Origin: a virus | DNA length: 28,203 nt | Strand: one strand, 5' to 3' | Virus record (IMG/VR): IMGVR_UViG_3300017987_000287 | Location: 1 to 28,203 of that record | In this document: piece by piece, positions 23,684-28,203 of the stretch | Layout: every line of letters begins with the position of its first letter | Numbering within the stretch: the stretch's first letter is position 1 | Position numbers and translations under genes: made by a program | Notes under the pieces: model-generated | Databases searched by the model: none | The model's input: only the letters and a program-made list of their open reading frames with translations | What the model was told of the DNA's origin: nothing

Positions 23684-23792
23684 TTGGCGAATTTACGCGA
23701 GTGATCCCGCCGGCCCCACTTTGATGTGTGCATCGGGTTCCGGTCCCCGACCTTACTTCGGGTTACAGTGGAGAAGTCAGGAGGAGATCGAG
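23684..23792. promoter_or_regulatory. Divergent control region between small and large terminase genes
   Basis: This 109-bp region separates the minus-strand terL from the plus-strand gene. It holds an inverted repeat GATG-TGTG-CATC (23,723-23,734) and a second, CCGA-N7-TCGG (23,747-23,761), then the SD (AGGAGGAG) of the plus-strand gene. A TTACAGT stretch at about 23,763-23,769 could be part of a plus-strand -10 box, but no good -35 box was found. Promoters in both directions are expected from the gene layout; their exact sites are not clear. Confidence 0.4.
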
Positions 23793-24560
23793 ATGGCCAC
23801 GCCCGCGAAGAACATCAACCCCCCGAACCACGACGAGGACTGCGTCTCGCTCGAACAGATCGAGCGGAAGGTCGCCGGCGCCAGGGCCCGCGCCCTGCGC
23901 ATCGCCCGCGAGGGGTTGCCCCCGTTGCCCGAGAACGCCGAGATCCGCGAGCGTAAGAAGGAGATCGCGCAGTACCGCGCCGGGGTCTCCCTGCTCTGGG
24001 ACCGCGAGCGGATCCTCCAGGAGACCGGCTGGAGTCTACAGAAGTTCATGGCCGTCGAGCGGTCCGTCGCGGACGAGGACCGCCGACTGACCGAGGAGGT
24101 CGACCCCCGGCTGGTCTTCTCGGAGTACAAGCTCCGCCAGCTCCAGGCCGCCCAGGAGCTCGAGGACCTCGCCCAGGTGTTCCGTCACTCCAGGCAGTTC
24201 TCCGCCCTGGTCTCCGCCGTGAAGACGCGGGCGGAGATTCTGGACAAGATCATCAAGTTCGGTCAGGACCTGGGGGTGATCAAGCGCGCCGCCCGGGAGG
24301 TCAACGTCAACGCGCAGGTGGACTTCCGCTCGATGAGCGTGACCGAGCTCCGCGTCCACCTCCGCCAAGAGGTGGCGGAGCTCGAGACCCTCCTGGGGGC
24401 GCCCGCGCGGGCGAACCCGACCGCGAACGCCGTGCTCTCGCGCGTGCTGAAGGGCGGGCGAGAGGAGCCCCCCGCCCTCCCACCGGCGACTGAGAAGAAG
24501 AAAGCGCCGCGGGTCAAGAAGCTCGCCTCACCAGTTCTGAAGAGCTCGAGCGACGATTGA
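23793..24560 (+). CDS. Probable terminase small subunit, divergently transcribed
   Basis: This is the only plus-strand gene: 255 residues with ATG at 23,793 and an AGGAGGAG SD; the upstream in-frame extension lacks one. Residues about 25-90 have an HTH-like segment ('ILQETGWSLQKFMAVERSV', about 75-93). Residues about 110-180 are helical with 'AVKTRAEILDKIIKFGQDLGVIKR' (about 156-179), similar to the oligomerisation helices of small terminase proteins. A basic tail with EKKKAPRVKK ends the protein. It would bind the packaging site and stimulate the large subunit. The opposite orientation to terL is unusual. A DNA-binding regulator is the main alternative. Confidence 0.6.
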   Translation: MATPAKNINPPNHDEDCVSLEQIERKVAGARARALRIAREGLPPLPENAEIRERKKEIAQYRAGVSLLWDRERILQETGWSLQKFMAVERSVADEDRRLTEEVDPRLVFSEYKLRQLQAAQELEDLAQVFRHSRQFSALVSAVKTRAEILDKIIKFGQDLGVIKRAAREVNVNAQVDFRSMSVTELRVHLRQEVAELETLLGAPARANPTANAVLSRVLKGGREEPPALPPATEKKKAPRVKKLASPVLKSSSDD

Positions 24561-24803
24561 CCGGAGTCGCTTCCGGTCCTTCTCCTCTAGCTCGTTGAAC
24601 TCCCGATTCGTCACGAGGTCGGCGAGCGGAACCGTGATCCGCTTCGTCCACCGCTTGGACTTGGAGAGGAATTTCTCGACCCGCGCGTACCCCTCCTTCC
24701 GCGAGCTCCCGGACGGTCGCACCACCGCCCACCCCCAATTTCCCCACCGAATCGCGTAGACCTCGCACCCTCGACTCGCCGCCAGGTTGATCGGAACGCT
24801 CAT
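24528..24803 (-). CDS. Unknown small protein, 91 aa
   Basis: The ATG at 24,803 overlaps the TGA of the HTH gene (TGATG). The product has a beta-rich front (GCEVYAIRWGNWGWAVVRP) and a basic helical back (KEGYARVEKFLSKSKRWTKR, then DRKRLRSIVARAL). There are no membrane or catalytic motifs. The 3' end overlaps the end of the plus-strand gene by 33 bp, so the two transcripts converge. No family recognised; it may be a small nucleic-acid-binding accessory protein. Confidence 0.65.
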   Translation of the reverse strand: MSVPINLAASRGCEVYAIRWGNWGWAVVRPSGSSRKEGYARVEKFLSKSKRWTKRITVPLADLVTNREFNELEEKDRKRLRSIVARALQNW

Positions 24804-25018
24804 CAGACACCTCCCTTCGGCCGGCGCACCCGCCGCCGCAGCTTCCGCCGCTTGTTCTTGTTCGGCGTGTATCCCTCCAGATCGCTCTCCCGGATCACCC
24901 ACGCCCGCCCGACCCGGGTCGCCGGAATTCGTCCCTCCTTCACCGCCAGAGCGATCGCCGTCCGGCTCACGCCCTTGACCTCCGCCGCCTCCGGGATCGA
25001 GTAGAGTCGCTCGCTCAC
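24803..25018 (-). CDS. Excisionase/MerR-type helix-turn-helix DNA-binding protein, 71 aa
   Basis: The ATG at 25,018 overlaps the preceding stop. Residues about 5-50 match the excisionase-family winged HTH: 'LYSIPEAAEVKGVSRTAIALAVKEGRIPATRVGRAWVI' with the turn at 'GVSRTAI' and the wing 'RVGRAWVIRESDLE'. A very basic tail follows (KNKRRKLRRRVRRPKGG). It probably binds a specific DNA site as a transcription regulator or recombination directionality factor. No integrase is visible in the window, so regulation is the simpler guess. Confidence 0.8.
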   Translation of the reverse strand: MSERLYSIPEAAEVKGVSRTAIALAVKEGRIPATRVGRAWVIRESDLEGYTPNKNKRRKLRRRVRRPKGGV

Positions 25019-25266
25019 TCCCCACCCCCGATCTTCAGCTCGATCCCGAGCGTCTCCGCCACCTGGACCAGTCGAGCCGCCGCCACCTCCGCCGACTGCG
25101 CCGCCTCCAGCGCGAAGTCCGCCGCCTTCGTGAGCTCCCCCCGTCCGAATCCACGCCCCTCGAACTTCTGCGCGATCGCCACCGCCAGGTAGGACGCCTC
25201 CACGTGCGCCTTCTTCACCCCCGCGTGCACGATCTCCAACCGCTCCTCGATCTCGTTCTTCGTCAT
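25015..25266 (-). CDS. Unknown helical protein, 83 aa
   Basis: The ATG at 25,266 overlaps the preceding TGA (ATGA) and follows a GGGAGG SD. The protein is alanine- and glutamate-rich and predicted to be fully helical (EIEERLEIVHAGVKKAHVEA, then ALEAAQSAEVAAARLVQVAE), perhaps a coiled coil. No motif or family recognised. It is coupled to the XF1762-like gene upstream and to the HTH gene downstream, so they probably form one transcriptional unit. Confidence 0.7.
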   Translation of the reverse strand: MTKNEIEERLEIVHAGVKKAHVEASYLAVAIAQKFEGRGFGRGELTKAADFALEAAQSAEVAAARLVQVAETLGIELKIGGGE

Positions 25267-25985
25267 CTCGACCTCCCGATCGTCCGCTCCCAGCGGACCT
25301 TGTTCGTGGTCGGCGCCTTGTCCGTCCGGCGACGCCCGGGGCGATCCCACGACCGCCCCTTGACCTCCGCCACCGGCTCGAAACCCGCCGCGCGGAGACT
25401 GGCGCCGTCCTCCTCCGCGAGCGTGTACGTGATCAACTTGTCGCAACCGAGCTTCCTCGCGCGCCGCGCCGCGAGTCCGAGGAGCTTCGTCGCCGCGTTC
25501 CTCCGGAGCGAGCTCTCCCCCCAGGTGCACAAGCGCGTGATCTCCAGCGTCCGCGGCTCCTTCCCCTGGAGCACCCTCGACACCGGCCGCCCGACCACCG
25601 CGACCCCGACCCGCGTCCGTCCGTTGTGAACCGCGACGCCGAACTTCCAGCTCACCGGGGGTCCGTGGTGCCTGTGATACCGCTCCACGTCCTCGAAGAC
25701 CTCCGTTCTCCACCCCGAGACCCCGAGCCCCGGGTCGATCCCCGCGAGCCGACAGCGAGCCACCGAGTCGCCTCGATCGCCCTCCAAAACGACCTCCCGA
25801 ACCTCCAACCCGGTGATCTCCGAGACCACGTCCTCCAGCTTCCGCCCGAACGCCGCCTCGAACCCGAACCGCTCGACGTATTCTCGCATTGCGAGACAAC
25901 AGGAGGTCCAATCGACCAGATACCCGCCGAGGACGTCCACGCCGGCGAGCTCGTCCTCGAACCCGCAAAATTCACACCTCAACAC
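25263..25985 (-). CDS. XF1762/GNAT-like protein with an N-terminal Cys-rich domain, 240 aa
   Basis: The start chosen is GTG 25,985, overlapping the previous stop by 7 nt with GGGGGTGGG as SD; the longer in-frame start runs across another gene. Residues 1-30 contain 'RCEFCG' and a later Cys-Cys pair (about 29-30), possibly metal-binding. Residues about 105-235 carry the XF1762 pattern: 'HHGPPVSWKFGVAV', 'GVAVVGRPVSRVL', 'LEITRLCTWG', 'RKLGCDKLITYTLAEEDGAS', 'LRAAGFEPVAEVKGRSW' and 'TTNKVRWER'. This fold is GNAT acetyltransferase-like. The substrate is unknown; modification of a nucleic acid or protein is possible but not shown. Confidence 0.75.
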   Translation of the reverse strand: MLRCEFCGFEDELAGVDVLGGYLVDWTSCCLAMREYVERFGFEAAFGRKLEDVVSEITGLEVREVVLEGDRGDSVARCRLAGIDPGLGVSGWRTEVFEDVERYHRHHGPPVSWKFGVAVHNGRTRVGVAVVGRPVSRVLQGKEPRTLEITRLCTWGESSLRRNAATKLLGLAARRARKLGCDKLITYTLAEEDGASLRAAGFEPVAEVKGRSWDRPGRRRTDKAPTTNKVRWERTIGRSR

Positions 25986-26206
25986 CCCACCCCCGTGATC
26001 GACTTCACCGTCGCGGTCAACCTTCTGACCAAGTCCAGAATCAACTCCCGATCCAACCCGTCCTCGCTGGAGACCTCCATCAACAGGGGACACAACGCGT
26101 TGTTCAGCAGGTGGGCCAGACACCCGCGAGCCGCGGGGGTCAGCTCCCCCTCGAGCTCGCGGAGCGCCTCCAAATTCATCTCGTTCGTCTCGATCGCCGC
26201 GTTCAT
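25979..26206 (-). CDS. Unknown small helical protein, 75 aa
   Basis: The ATG at 26,206 follows GGAAGGAG with good spacing. The product is a compact, leucine-rich, mainly helical protein (LEALRELEGELTPAARGCLA, then LDRELILDLVRRLTATVKSI) with Cys residues and no membrane segment. It overlaps the XF1762-like gene by 7 nt. No family recognised; position suggests an accessory gene of the same unit. Confidence 0.65.
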   Translation of the reverse strand: MNAAIETNEMNLEALRELEGELTPAARGCLAHLLNNALCPLLMEVSSEDGLDRELILDLVRRLTATVKSITGVGC

Positions 26207-26219
26207 CGCTCGCTCCTTC

Positions 26220-26693
26220 CTAGAGTCCGACCTTGTCCCGACACTCCGGACCGAATCCCGTCCGGACGCTCTCGGGGACCGTGAGCTTCCGACCGCACCG
26301 ACCGCACCGCCCCTCGTGGTAGACGTGGAGCTCCTCGGGGAGGACCCGGCCGGAGCTCAGGCGACCCCAGAACCACGCCCACGCCCGCGCGCTCGGGGCC
26401 TCCGCCGAGATCCTGGACTTCCGCCCCGCCCGGTACTCCCGCCCCTTCTTCAGGAAGATCGTCCCGAGGAAGGTGAAGTCCCCCTCGTTGTCCGCCCCGG
26501 TCAGCACCTTGACGAACCGAACCGGCGCGTCGAGGTCCCGCACCACCCCACCCCGCTCCGTGTCCTTCGACGGCGCGCTCACCCGAAAGGTGAACCGCCC
26601 GCCAGTCCGCTCGTTCTCCAGGGTGACGTCCGCCCGACCGGCCACCACGTAGGCGAGGAGCTCGCCGTTCTTCTCGAGCTCGCCGCGCGTCAT
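26220..26693 (-). CDS. Protein with a C-terminal zinc-ribbon-like DUF6011-type motif, 157 aa
   Basis: The ATG at 26,693 overlaps the preceding TGA (ATGA). The longer upstream frame to 26,933 is a shadow of the previous gene and leader. The C-terminal segment 'HEGRCGRCGRKLTVPESVRTG' leading to 'FGPECRD' (Cys130, Cys133, Cys151) matches the DUF6011 pattern. The N-terminal part has strands such as ELLAYVVAGRADVTLENERT and FTFLGTIFLKKGREY, and could be a separate domain. The role is unknown; such motifs occur in phage and plasmid accessory proteins. Confidence 0.7.
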   Translation of the reverse strand: MTRGELEKNGELLAYVVAGRADVTLENERTGGRFTFRVSAPSKDTERGGVVRDLDAPVRFVKVLTGADNEGDFTFLGTIFLKKGREYRAGRKSRISAEAPSARAWAWFWGRLSSGRVLPEELHVYHEGRCGRCGRKLTVPESVRTGFGPECRDKVGL

Positions 26694-26878
26694 CGGACCA
26701 CCTCCCCCCGAACCGCCCACCGGCCGCGACGATCGTAGTAGAGCTCGATCCGGTCGCCCCTCGGGGAGACCCACCGCTCCGACCCGCTCACGTAGTCCAT
26801 CAAAAAAGCGCAACCGTTCCCGCTCAGGTGGTCCCGCGCCGCGTCCTTGCTGTCGAACTTTCTGATCGTCTTCGTCAT
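26690..26878 (-). CDS. Small protein directly downstream of leader copy A, 62 aa
   Basis: The start chosen is ATG 26,878, with GGAGGGAACGAG as SD; an in-frame ATG 7 codons earlier lies inside the repeated leader and has no SD. The product is charged, with 'GNGCAFLMDYVSG' and 'RIELYYDRRGRWAVRG' strands, likely a small beta-sheet protein. No family recognised. It is the first gene after leader copy A and is coupled to the zinc-motif gene. Confidence 0.65.
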   Translation of the reverse strand: MTKTIRKFDSKDAARDHLSGNGCAFLMDYVSGSERWVSPRGDRIELYYDRRGRWAVRGEVVR

Positions 26879-26977
26879 CTCGTTCCCTCCGTCGTTCATA
26901 ATATAATCTTGACACGTGGTAAGATTTAGTCAAGAGGGAAAGTGTATTTTTTTTCAGAAAAGTGTATCTACTTTAAA
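26879..26977 (-). promoter_or_regulatory. AT-rich leader/promoter module, copy A
   Basis: This module upstream of the 62-aa gene is nearly identical to 27,929-28,027. On the minus strand it holds two ATACACTTT direct repeats 20 bp apart (complement at 26,959-26,967 and 26,939-26,947) separated by an A-tract. TTGACT follows, then an inverted repeat TTGAC-N15-GTCAA (26,909-26,933) with CACGTG inside, then an AAGATTATATTAT box and the SD. A sigma70-like promoter with TTGACT as -35 and AAGATT or GATTAT as -10 (17-19 bp spacing) is plausible; the repeats may be operator or activator sites. Much more AT-rich than the flanking DNA. Confidence 0.6.
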
Positions 26978-26982
26978 TCGTG

Positions 26983-27492
26983 CTACTTCACCGGAGTCCA
27001 CCCCGCCCGCTCCCACGCCTCGAAGCCCGTCCACTTCACCGCGGGAAATCCGGGATCCGCCGAAACCGCGAGACAGGAGGTCGGGAGGGCGAAAAAACGC
27101 GCCCCGTCGGTCAGGACGGTCACGGGCCCCACGTCGAGCCCCGGGTTCCGCCGCCGGCAGTCCCGCGCCGCCTGACGCCGGTCCTCGACCGCGAACTTCG
27201 CCCGCCGCTCGATCTCCTTCAGGACCGCCCGCTCGCCGGCGACCCGCTGGAAGAACTCCAGCTCCAGCTTCTTGGTGGTGAACTTGTCCACCGGCCGCTT
27301 CCACCCGAGGGCGAGGTGAGCGCACTCCCGCCCGACCTCGTCCACCGCCCCCGACTCCCGCCGGACCGTGTAGACGTGGACCAGCTTCCGCCCGCAGATC
27401 TGGCACTCCCGCGCCCGCTCCCAGTCGCTGACCCGCTTGTCCCGCTCGTCCACGTAGGAGATCCACTCGTACCCGATCAACTCCGCGCTCAT
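26983..27492 (-). CDS. Zinc-ribbon-like protein with CxxC and CxH motifs, 169 aa
   Basis: The ATG at 27,492 overlaps the preceding TGA (ATGA), with a GGAGGTG SD. Residues 28-60 have 'RECQICGRKLVHVYTV' and 'DEVGRECAHLAL' (Cys30, Cys33, Cys57, His59), a likely metal-binding ribbon. A helical basic region follows (LEFFQRVAGERAVLKEIERR), and the C-terminus reads 'VTVLTDGARFFALPTSCLAV' and 'WERAGWTPVK'. The motif resembles the one in the 157-aa gene nearby. Function unknown; nucleic acid binding is the simplest guess. Confidence 0.7.
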   Translation of the reverse strand: MSAELIGYEWISYVDERDKRVSDWERARECQICGRKLVHVYTVRRESGAVDEVGRECAHLALGWKRPVDKFTTKKLELEFFQRVAGERAVLKEIERRAKFAVEDRRQAARDCRRRNPGLDVGPVTVLTDGARFFALPTSCLAVSADPGFPAVKWTGFEAWERAGWTPVK

Positions 27493-27773
27493 CTCGACAC
27501 CTCCTTCACGATTATCACGGCGTACCGCTCGAGGTCCCCCCAGCTCCGGTTGAGGTTCGCCGGCGCCTCGACCCGACCCTCGAAGACCTTGACCTCCCCC
27601 GCCGCCTTGCTCCCGATCACCCGGCCGCAGTTGCGGATCACCCGGTCCACGGTCACCCGCCAGTGACTCCCGTACCAGGTCGGCTCCGGCACGAAGAAAC
27701 CGAGCTTCCGGTACTTCGCCGCGGTCCGGAGCGCCAGCGCGTGGATCGCGCTCTTCTTGTCCTCGCTCATCAT
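27489..27773 (-). CDS. Unknown small protein, 94 aa
   Basis: The ATG at 27,773 overlaps the preceding TGA by one base, with GAGGTG upstream; a second ATG follows directly. The product has a helix (IHALALRTAAKYRKLGFFVP) and then beta strands with 'WYGSHWRVTVDRVIRNCG' and 'YAVIIVKEVSR'. No family recognised. It is the second gene after leader copy B and is coupled on both sides. Confidence 0.65.
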   Translation of the reverse strand: MMSEDKKSAIHALALRTAAKYRKLGFFVPEPTWYGSHWRVTVDRVIRNCGRVIGSKAAGEVKVFEGRVEAPANLNRSWGDLERYAVIIVKEVSR

Positions 27774-27928
27774 CAGAGCACCTCCCCGGCGAGCTCCGCC
27801 TTGACCGCGGCCCGCACCGCCTTGTGGTAAGCCTTCTTGACGCCCTTCCGGGACTTCTTGGTCGCGCCGTACTTCTTCTCGACCTTGGAGTGCTTCACCT
27901 CGGAGACCTTGTTCGCGACCTTGTTCAT
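27773..27928 (-). CDS. Small basic protein directly downstream of leader copy B, 51 aa
   Basis: The start chosen is ATG 27,928 with GGAGGGACGAG as SD; the earlier in-frame TTG start lies in the repeated leader and is a shadow. The product is Lys-rich (KKYGATKKSRKGVKKAYHKA) and ends in an acidic/neutral tail, predicted helical. It may bind nucleic acid, but no family is recognised. It is the first gene after leader copy B. Confidence 0.6.
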   Translation of the reverse strand: MNKVANKVSEVKHSKVEKKYGATKKSRKGVKKAYHKAVRAAVKAELAGEVL

Positions 27929-28027
27929 CTCGTCCCTCCGTCGTTGATAATATAATCTTGACACGTGATAAGATTTAATCAAGAGGTAAAGTGTATTTTT
28001 TTTTCAGAAAAGTGTATCTAGCTTTAA
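27929..28027 (-). promoter_or_regulatory. AT-rich leader/promoter module, copy B
   Basis: This is the second copy of the module described for copy A, differing by a few substitutions and small indels. The direct repeats are 21 bp apart (28,009-28,017 and 27,988-27,996). The TTGAC arm is conserved (27,958-27,962), while the opposite arm is ATCAA instead of GTCAA. CACGTG, the AAGATTATATTAT box and the SD are kept. It begins at the stop codon of the right-edge gene and precedes the 51-aa gene. Confidence 0.6.
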
Positions 28028-28203
28028 TCAATAAAGTCTTACCGGAACGTACCCCCGACGGTACCAGACCTCCCCGAACGGTTCAGTCGCGACGTAGATC
28101 GCGATCCCCGCGCCGTGCTCCCGACAGGCGAGGAAAGCCCCCGACGCCCGAAGAACGTCCTCGACCTCGTCGGGTCGAACGCCCCGCCACGTCCGCCCGC
28201 TCG
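28028..28203 (-). CDS. C-terminal end of a gene cut by the right window edge
   Basis: An open frame from the right edge ends with TGA at 28,030-28,028, giving 57 residues. They include 'RPDEVEDVLRASGAFLACREHG', split here for reading as RPDEVEDVLRAS then GAFLACREHG, followed by 'AIYVATEPFGEVWYRRGY' and the C-terminus VPVRLY. Composition and codon use match the other minus-strand genes, and the stop lies just before leader copy B. Alternating helix and strand suggest a small alpha/beta domain. The start and function cannot be seen. Confidence 0.6.
   Translation of the reverse strand, partial: SGRTWRGVRPDEVEDVLRASGAFLACREHGAGIAIYVATEPFGEVWYRRGYVPVRLY

Follow-up and report, generated by a model that had tools for sequence, protein, structure and literature searches.

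Probable repeated phage promoters with, in most copies, a start codon at the predicted transcription start and a second start led by a Shine-Dalgarno sequence

The question raised by this locus is what function is carried by two near-identical, AT-rich modules of about 100 bp, located at 26879-26980 (module B) and 27929-28030 (module A) of the window, which is the whole stretch of DNA analysed: an IMG/VR virus record of 28,203 nt, representing a fragment rather than a whole genome. The window codes for the packaging, portal, capsid and further structural proteins of a tailed phage, and takes in the border of a region with small non-structural genes. The two modules, which had been noticed in a previous sequence-only reading, exhibit 93% identity over 98 nt, are separated by 1,049 bp from start to start, and constitute the strongest direct repeat within the window. 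As the nearby genes, all but one, are on the minus strand, the modules were read on this strand. In agreement with the first description, each module is located 3' of the stop codon of the upstream minus-strand gene (26983 and 28028) and is followed by a small minus-strand gene. The order of the elements on this strand is ATACACTTT, A-tract, ATACACTTT, TTGAYT, spacer, CAAGAT, TATATT, AT(G/C), GGAGGG and ATG. The features of the two copies, with the hexamers assigned by alignment with relatives and the repeat units by repeat comparison, are as follows.

Module B
26879..26980, minus strand: whole repeat unit
26939..26967, minus strand: paired ATACACTTT boxes, 20 bp apart, with an A-tract between them
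26928..26933, minus strand: -35 hexamer TTGACT
26906..26911, minus strand: -10 hexamer CAAGAT, with extended -10 TG (TGTCAAGAT)
26905..26926, no strand: CACGTG-centred dyad in the spacer and -10, not kept across the clade
26897..26899, minus strand: ATG at the predicted +1 (putative leaderless start), opening a 69-aa frame
26885..26890, minus strand: Shine-Dalgarno (SD) sequence GGAGGG, within the extension codons NDGGNE
26690..26878, minus strand: gene under module B from the second, SD-led, in-frame start; 62 aa (69 aa from 26899)

Module A
27929..28030, minus strand: whole repeat unit
27988..28017, minus strand: paired ATACACTTT boxes, 21 bp apart, with an A-tract between them
27977..27982, minus strand: -35 hexamer TTGATT
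27955..27960, minus strand: -10 hexamer CAAGAT
27954..27975, no strand: CACGTG-centred dyad, not kept across the clade
27946..27948, minus strand: ATC in place of ATG/GTG (putative leaderless start lost); the frame ends after 7 codons
27934..27939, minus strand: SD sequence GGAGGG, the sole evident start signal of this copy
27773..27928, minus strand: 51-aa lysine-rich gene with an SD-led ATG
27489..27773, minus strand: second gene of the module A transcription unit, 94 aa, no assigned function
26983..27492, minus strand: third gene under module A, 169 aa, no assigned function, ending just before module B

The paired AAAGTGTAT boxes are exact in both modules, 20 or 21 bp apart, and the dyad AATCTT-N2-CACGTG-N2-AAGATT is also present in both; neither was found in shuffled windows. 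The TTGAC...GTCAA/ATCAA arms are likewise present in both copies, as originally described. With regard to RNA or attenuator structures 5' of the window promoters, no fold surpasses those of shuffled sequences, and a search for relatives of the 169-aa gene returned none.

Relatives of the window were sought through its terminase. This search yielded 13 viral loci, including seven at 62-79% TerL identity and two in contigs of ~105 kb, and an alignment search added one 102-kb contig; the records of the relatives were read entirely or for the most part. When these were scanned for AT-rich islands, promoter-like blocks appeared just before small genes in G001, G005 and G007, which could be aligned with the window modules, and a motif scan extended the set to G002, G004 and, later, G014. 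With a weight matrix spanning the -35 to the -10, 29 distinct modules were obtained in six phages, window included: two in the window, three in G001/G002 (counted together, being the same phage or near twins), three in G004, ten in G005, five in G007 and six in G014. These counts are not independent, because the copies of any one phage arose by recent duplication. In Markov-shuffled sequences (a single shuffle of each record), no match reached the score cut-off. When two IUPAC versions of the core were compared with 2.9 million viral contigs, almost only clade records were retrieved, the extras being one new short clade contig with two modules (L059) and four chance matches in AT-rich contigs. 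Across all viral contigs, the dyad pattern matched only one chance palindrome, in an AT-rich contig; the exact paired-box pattern matched nothing outside the window. The sequence-only reading had proposed that the two copies could form one regulon; recurrence as a multi-copy set is supported, with up to 10 copies in one related phage, and an operator is not, the dyad and the arms not being kept in most relatives. As regards arrangement, eight promoter-gene cassettes stand in tandem over 6 kb at 55726-61440 of G005, just before the terminase region, and in L005 (G002) two back-to-back modules about 93 bp apart, at 984 (minus strand) and 1077 (plus strand), drive divergent genes.

The clade alignment shows a conserved promoter core, which supports the earlier view that the module is a regulatory element and not a protein repeat. 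This core comprises a T(T/G)GACA-like -35, a 16-bp spacer containing TTCTT(A/T)C, and an extended -10, TGN-TAAGAT. The 29 modules align without gaps from -35 to -10, except for one with a 17-bp spacer. When positions are weighted by genome, the near-invariant ones are T..AC(A/T) of the -35, the TTCTT(A/T)C-like spacer motif, the TG of the extended -10, and AAGAT. A T-rich CA(C/T)TTTT box is located 5-12 nt 5' of the -35, and some 20 bp beyond it comes an A/T-rich tract. Both the window sequences (TTGACT/TTGATT-16-CAAGAT) and those of the relatives (T(T/G)GACA-16-TAAGAT) correspond to sigma70-type elements, their 16-bp spacing falling within the 15-19 bp of such promoters. The CAAGAT of the window is a weaker -10 than the TAAGAT of the clade, and the TATATT further on could be an alternative -10. 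At 29454 of G004 and 19294 of G005, terminator and promoter overlap: the gene upstream is closed by a strong hairpin terminator whose end lies in the CATTTT box of the promoter that follows. The upstream element was also considered as a terminator and rejected, hairpins ending in the CATTTT box being present in a few relatives and not in the window.

This alignment changes the meaning of the inverted repeat. What had been presented as an operator-type element corresponds to a promoter, with its TTGAC arm serving as the -35 hexamer and its second arm falling within the extended -10 region; the TTGAC...GTCAA inverted repeat is absent in relatives with TGGACA or TTTACA and TAAGAT. A set of operators in which the CACGTG dyad, the paired AAAGTGTAT boxes or both bind a phage or host regulator, e.g., the HTH_17 protein encoded at 24803-25018, is in our judgement an unlikely explanation of the modules. 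An almost perfect dyad is indeed present in the window and in part of the G007 modules, CACTTTT boxes are paired about 21 bp apart in one G002 module and less regularly in G007, and HTH_17 paralogues are found near modules in G004 and G005. Nevertheless, the dyad arms beyond TCTT/AAGA are not kept in G004, G005, G014 and some G007 modules, and the distal box is missing from G004, G005 and G014. The conservation of TCTT/AAGA is itself explained by the fact that they belong to the spacer motif and the -10. As the paired boxes, the inverted repeat and the dyad are not clade-wide, they are local elaborations and not the conserved unit. A conserved operator was thus ruled out on the alignment, the CACGTG centre and the outer arms occurring only in the window and some G007 modules, and the suggested phage-regulator operator finds no comparative support, its TTGAC...GTCAA arms and CACGTG dyad not being kept in most relatives. 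The HTH_17 protein is tied to the modules by position only. Binding of a regulator can coexist with promoter function, and no mutual exclusion is needed.

Downstream of the core, 25 of the 29 modules have an ATG or GTG that starts at a distance of exactly 6 nt from the -10 hexamer. One more has it at 5 nt, and the remaining three read ATC (window copy A), ATA and TAG. Other offsets up to 20 never have a start codon in more than 6/29 modules, and those six, at offset 4, belong to ATGTG strings; there the earlier ATG meets a stop codon at once (ATG-TGA), which leaves the GTG at offset 6 as the sole usable start. ATG and GTG swap between phages at offset 6, with the TG remaining fixed. L059, which was retrieved by the core pattern without the start codon, offers an independent test: of its two modules, one has GTG and the other ATG at offset 6; none of the four chance core matches in AT-rich contigs has a start codon there. 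Since the ATG/GTG coincides with the transcription start predicted 6 nt after the -10, the mRNAs are predicted to be leaderless; the -10 places +1 on the start codon in window copy B and not in copy A. Other genes of these phages are organized differently: among 243 genes of at least 120 aa in three of them, an SD-like 4-mer is located near an early start in 195, and TANNNT occurs 6-7 nt before the first start in only three.

In most modules, including copy B, a second start preceded by an SD sequence lies on the same predicted transcript, 18, 21, 24, 33, 36, 39, 42, 45, 48 or 51 nt after the first. All ten spacings are multiples of three, and the two starts are in frame wherever the first is kept. 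The GC content by codon position between the starts is 0.41/0.48/0.78 (positions 1/2/3; Fisher p = 4e-14, an optimistic value because the copies are related), and as a high third-position GC is a coding signature in these GC-rich genomes, the stretch between the starts is coding-like. A gene for a UvrD-type helicase is found behind the module in G004, G005, G014 and L059, with in-frame N-terminal extensions that vary in length, from about 11-12 residues in three phages to about 38 in one. The multiple-of-three spacings, the third-position GC excess and the in-frame UvrD extensions together indicate that the frame opened at the predicted +1 is coding. L075 carries a more distant relative of the UvrD gene, and there the homologous CCAGAAAGGAG serves as an ordinary SD sequence with no such promoter before it. 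This suggests that the SD-led start may be the older one, and that a promoter bringing its own start codon may have been added later, upstream and in the same frame.

The two window copies differ in this respect, and the full dual-start design is present in only one of them. Copy B reads CAAGAT TATATT ATG AAC GAC GGA GGG AAC GAG ATG ACG..., with both starts in frame (69/62 aa) and a product beginning M-NDGGNE-M.... Identity between the copies had been thought to stop at the start codon; this has to be corrected for copy B, where 26878 is probably the second of two in-frame starts. Module B reaches into the reading frame, because its first ATG (26899-26897) lies inside the conserved module. Copy A reads CAAGAT TATATT ATC AAC GAC GGA GGG ACG AGA TGA..., in which the ATG is changed to ATC and 1 nt is deleted, leaving the SD-led ATG at 27928 as the only start for the 51-aa gene. 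Copy A is the exception, having lost both start codon and frame and apparently working as an ordinary SD-led promoter. Modules that retain the +1 start also retain the frame, and in copy A both are missing, which fits the use of the +1 start. The one-base indel had been taken as an argument against a leader peptide; it is valid for copy A only, as the clade generally exhibits an in-frame, coding-like N-terminal extension beginning with ATG/GTG.

These data also bear on another explanation, in which the modules would be ordinary repeated sigma70 promoters with a short leader, the ribosomes using only the SD-led start and the ATG at +1 being incidental. In its favour, most modules, both window copies among them, have a good SD sequence ahead of the second start; for copy A and one G014 module this is the only mode available; and at the homologous CCAGAAAGGAG of L075 a plain SD sequence is located in an untranslated stretch. 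On the other hand, this explanation leaves unaccounted for the fixed position of the ATG/GTG (25/29), the maintenance of the frame at ten different spacings, the coding periodicity of the extension, and the several modules that lack any SD-led start. We assign it a low probability.

The reading that we consider probable is that the modules are sigma70-type phage promoters read by the host RNA polymerase, with a transcript starting at the start codon and undergoing leaderless translation. The host RNA polymerase with its housekeeping (sigma70-type) factor would read the module as a strong promoter, in which the -35 (TTGAC/TT), the 16-bp spacer and the extended -10 (TGNYAAGAT) would set initiation about 6 nt past the -10. 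The CA(C/T)TTTT box and the A-tract, two helical turns apart, probably form a UP-type element. In the clade and in copy B, the initiation nucleotide would be the first base of the ATG/GTG, yielding a leaderless mRNA on which the 70S ribosome could begin at the 5' end with no need for an SD sequence, as on the leaderless mRNAs of lambda cI, Actinobacteria and Deinococcus. The SD-led in-frame start 18-51 nt further on would then give a shorter form of the same protein. Each promoter would serve a short transcription unit of non-structural genes, which are probably early.

A promoter dedicated to a phage-encoded or phage-modified polymerase, instead of the host holoenzyme, could explain why the core is unusually rigid and almost confined to the clade among 2.9 million viral contigs. 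We regard this as very improbable, since the -35 and extended -10 look like sigma70 elements. In five relatives, no match to sigma region 2 or 4 was found, and no T7-type single-subunit polymerase either, the latter being weak evidence because the search model matched no control genome.

In some bacteria leaderless translation is common; for phages, the usual examples are single genes, lambda cI being one. In lambda cI and the leaderless genes of Actinobacteria and Deinococcus-Thermus, a -10 element is located 6-7 nt before the start, with an ATG/GTG at the 5' end and no SD sequence upstream (PMC3160421, PMC12340547, PMC4633059). In Deinococcus, a TANNNT motif 6-7 bp before open reading frames drives leaderless expression (PMC12340547); in mycobacteria, an ATG or GTG at the 5' end is both required and enough (PMC4633059). 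The modules resemble these genes in the spacing from -10 to start, in the ATG/GTG at the predicted 5' end and in having no SD sequence before it. They differ in being a phage-borne repeated cassette, with a rigid -35 and spacer and a second, in-frame SD-led start.

In Escherichia coli, both starts function on mRNAs in which a 5'-terminal AUG is followed by an SD-led start, and replacement of the 5'-uAUG by AUC altered downstream expression in some of them (PMC4965119). The modules are similar in combining a leaderless and an SD-led start on one, here predicted, mRNA, and copy A naturally carries the very AUG to AUC change that was used as a test mutation in that work. In contrast to the 5'-uORFs of E. 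coli, which were studied gene by gene and are separate upstream frames of varying length, the phage modules have both starts in frame in every module possessing both, across several phages.

Multi-copy elements at start codons have been reported in cluster K mycobacteriophages, in which SAS/ESAS elements are accompanied by inverted repeats (PMC12699233); in three of the seven ESAS of Yasnaya_Polyana, the last base of the repeat is also the first of the start codon (PMC12699233). The modules are likewise multi-copy phage elements adjoining start codons, whereas their conserved unit is a -35/-10 promoter and not a pair of 17-nt inverted repeats. Scanning the window for the SAS consensus GGGATAGGAGCCC before start codons, with at most 2 mismatches, gave one chance-level match, away from the modules. 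In lytic phages, early promoters are also repeated: small genes are arranged in tandem units, and a strong host-type promoter stands before each unit. The modules are similar to these and differ by the fusion of the start codon to the predicted transcription start. They combine known kinds of elements, namely multi-copy phage promoters with leaderless and 5'-AUG/SD mRNAs. In the literature searched, mostly outside subscription journals, no description of a repeated phage promoter fused to a start codon was found.

As for the advantage of such a design, we put forward tentatively, as a possibility that we consider less likely than not, that an early promoter fused to a start codon would allow 70S translation without SD selection during takeover, that the in-frame SD-led start would provide a second isoform, and that the whole would be a portable dual-start cassette, copies like A reverting to SD-only initiation. 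If the proposed promoter reading is true, the modules offer a natural promoter series, including spontaneous ATG to ATC/ATA variants, with which the reasons for leaderless initiation in phages could be tested. This reading also suggests that, where the small genes are annotated from the SD-led ATG, their starts are misplaced by 6-17 residues.

Searches of genome contigs with TerL and its alignment found no prophage or host, and tBLASTn against phages found no close cultured relative and no host. Elsewhere in the window, a 256-aa ORF at 23790-24560 (plus strand) is 46-69% identical in five relatives and is on the strand opposite to all other genes. It has no Pfam or PHROG match and sits between the terminase and the HTH gene, a position that suggests a packaging-related role. 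A Mom-like DNA modification protein (phrog_1384) is encoded at 25263-25991 (minus strand) and is also present in G007. Finally, the DUF6011 protein encoded at 26220-26693 (minus strand) shares up to 55% identity with proteins of very large Brevundimonas, Caulobacter and Rhizobium phages.
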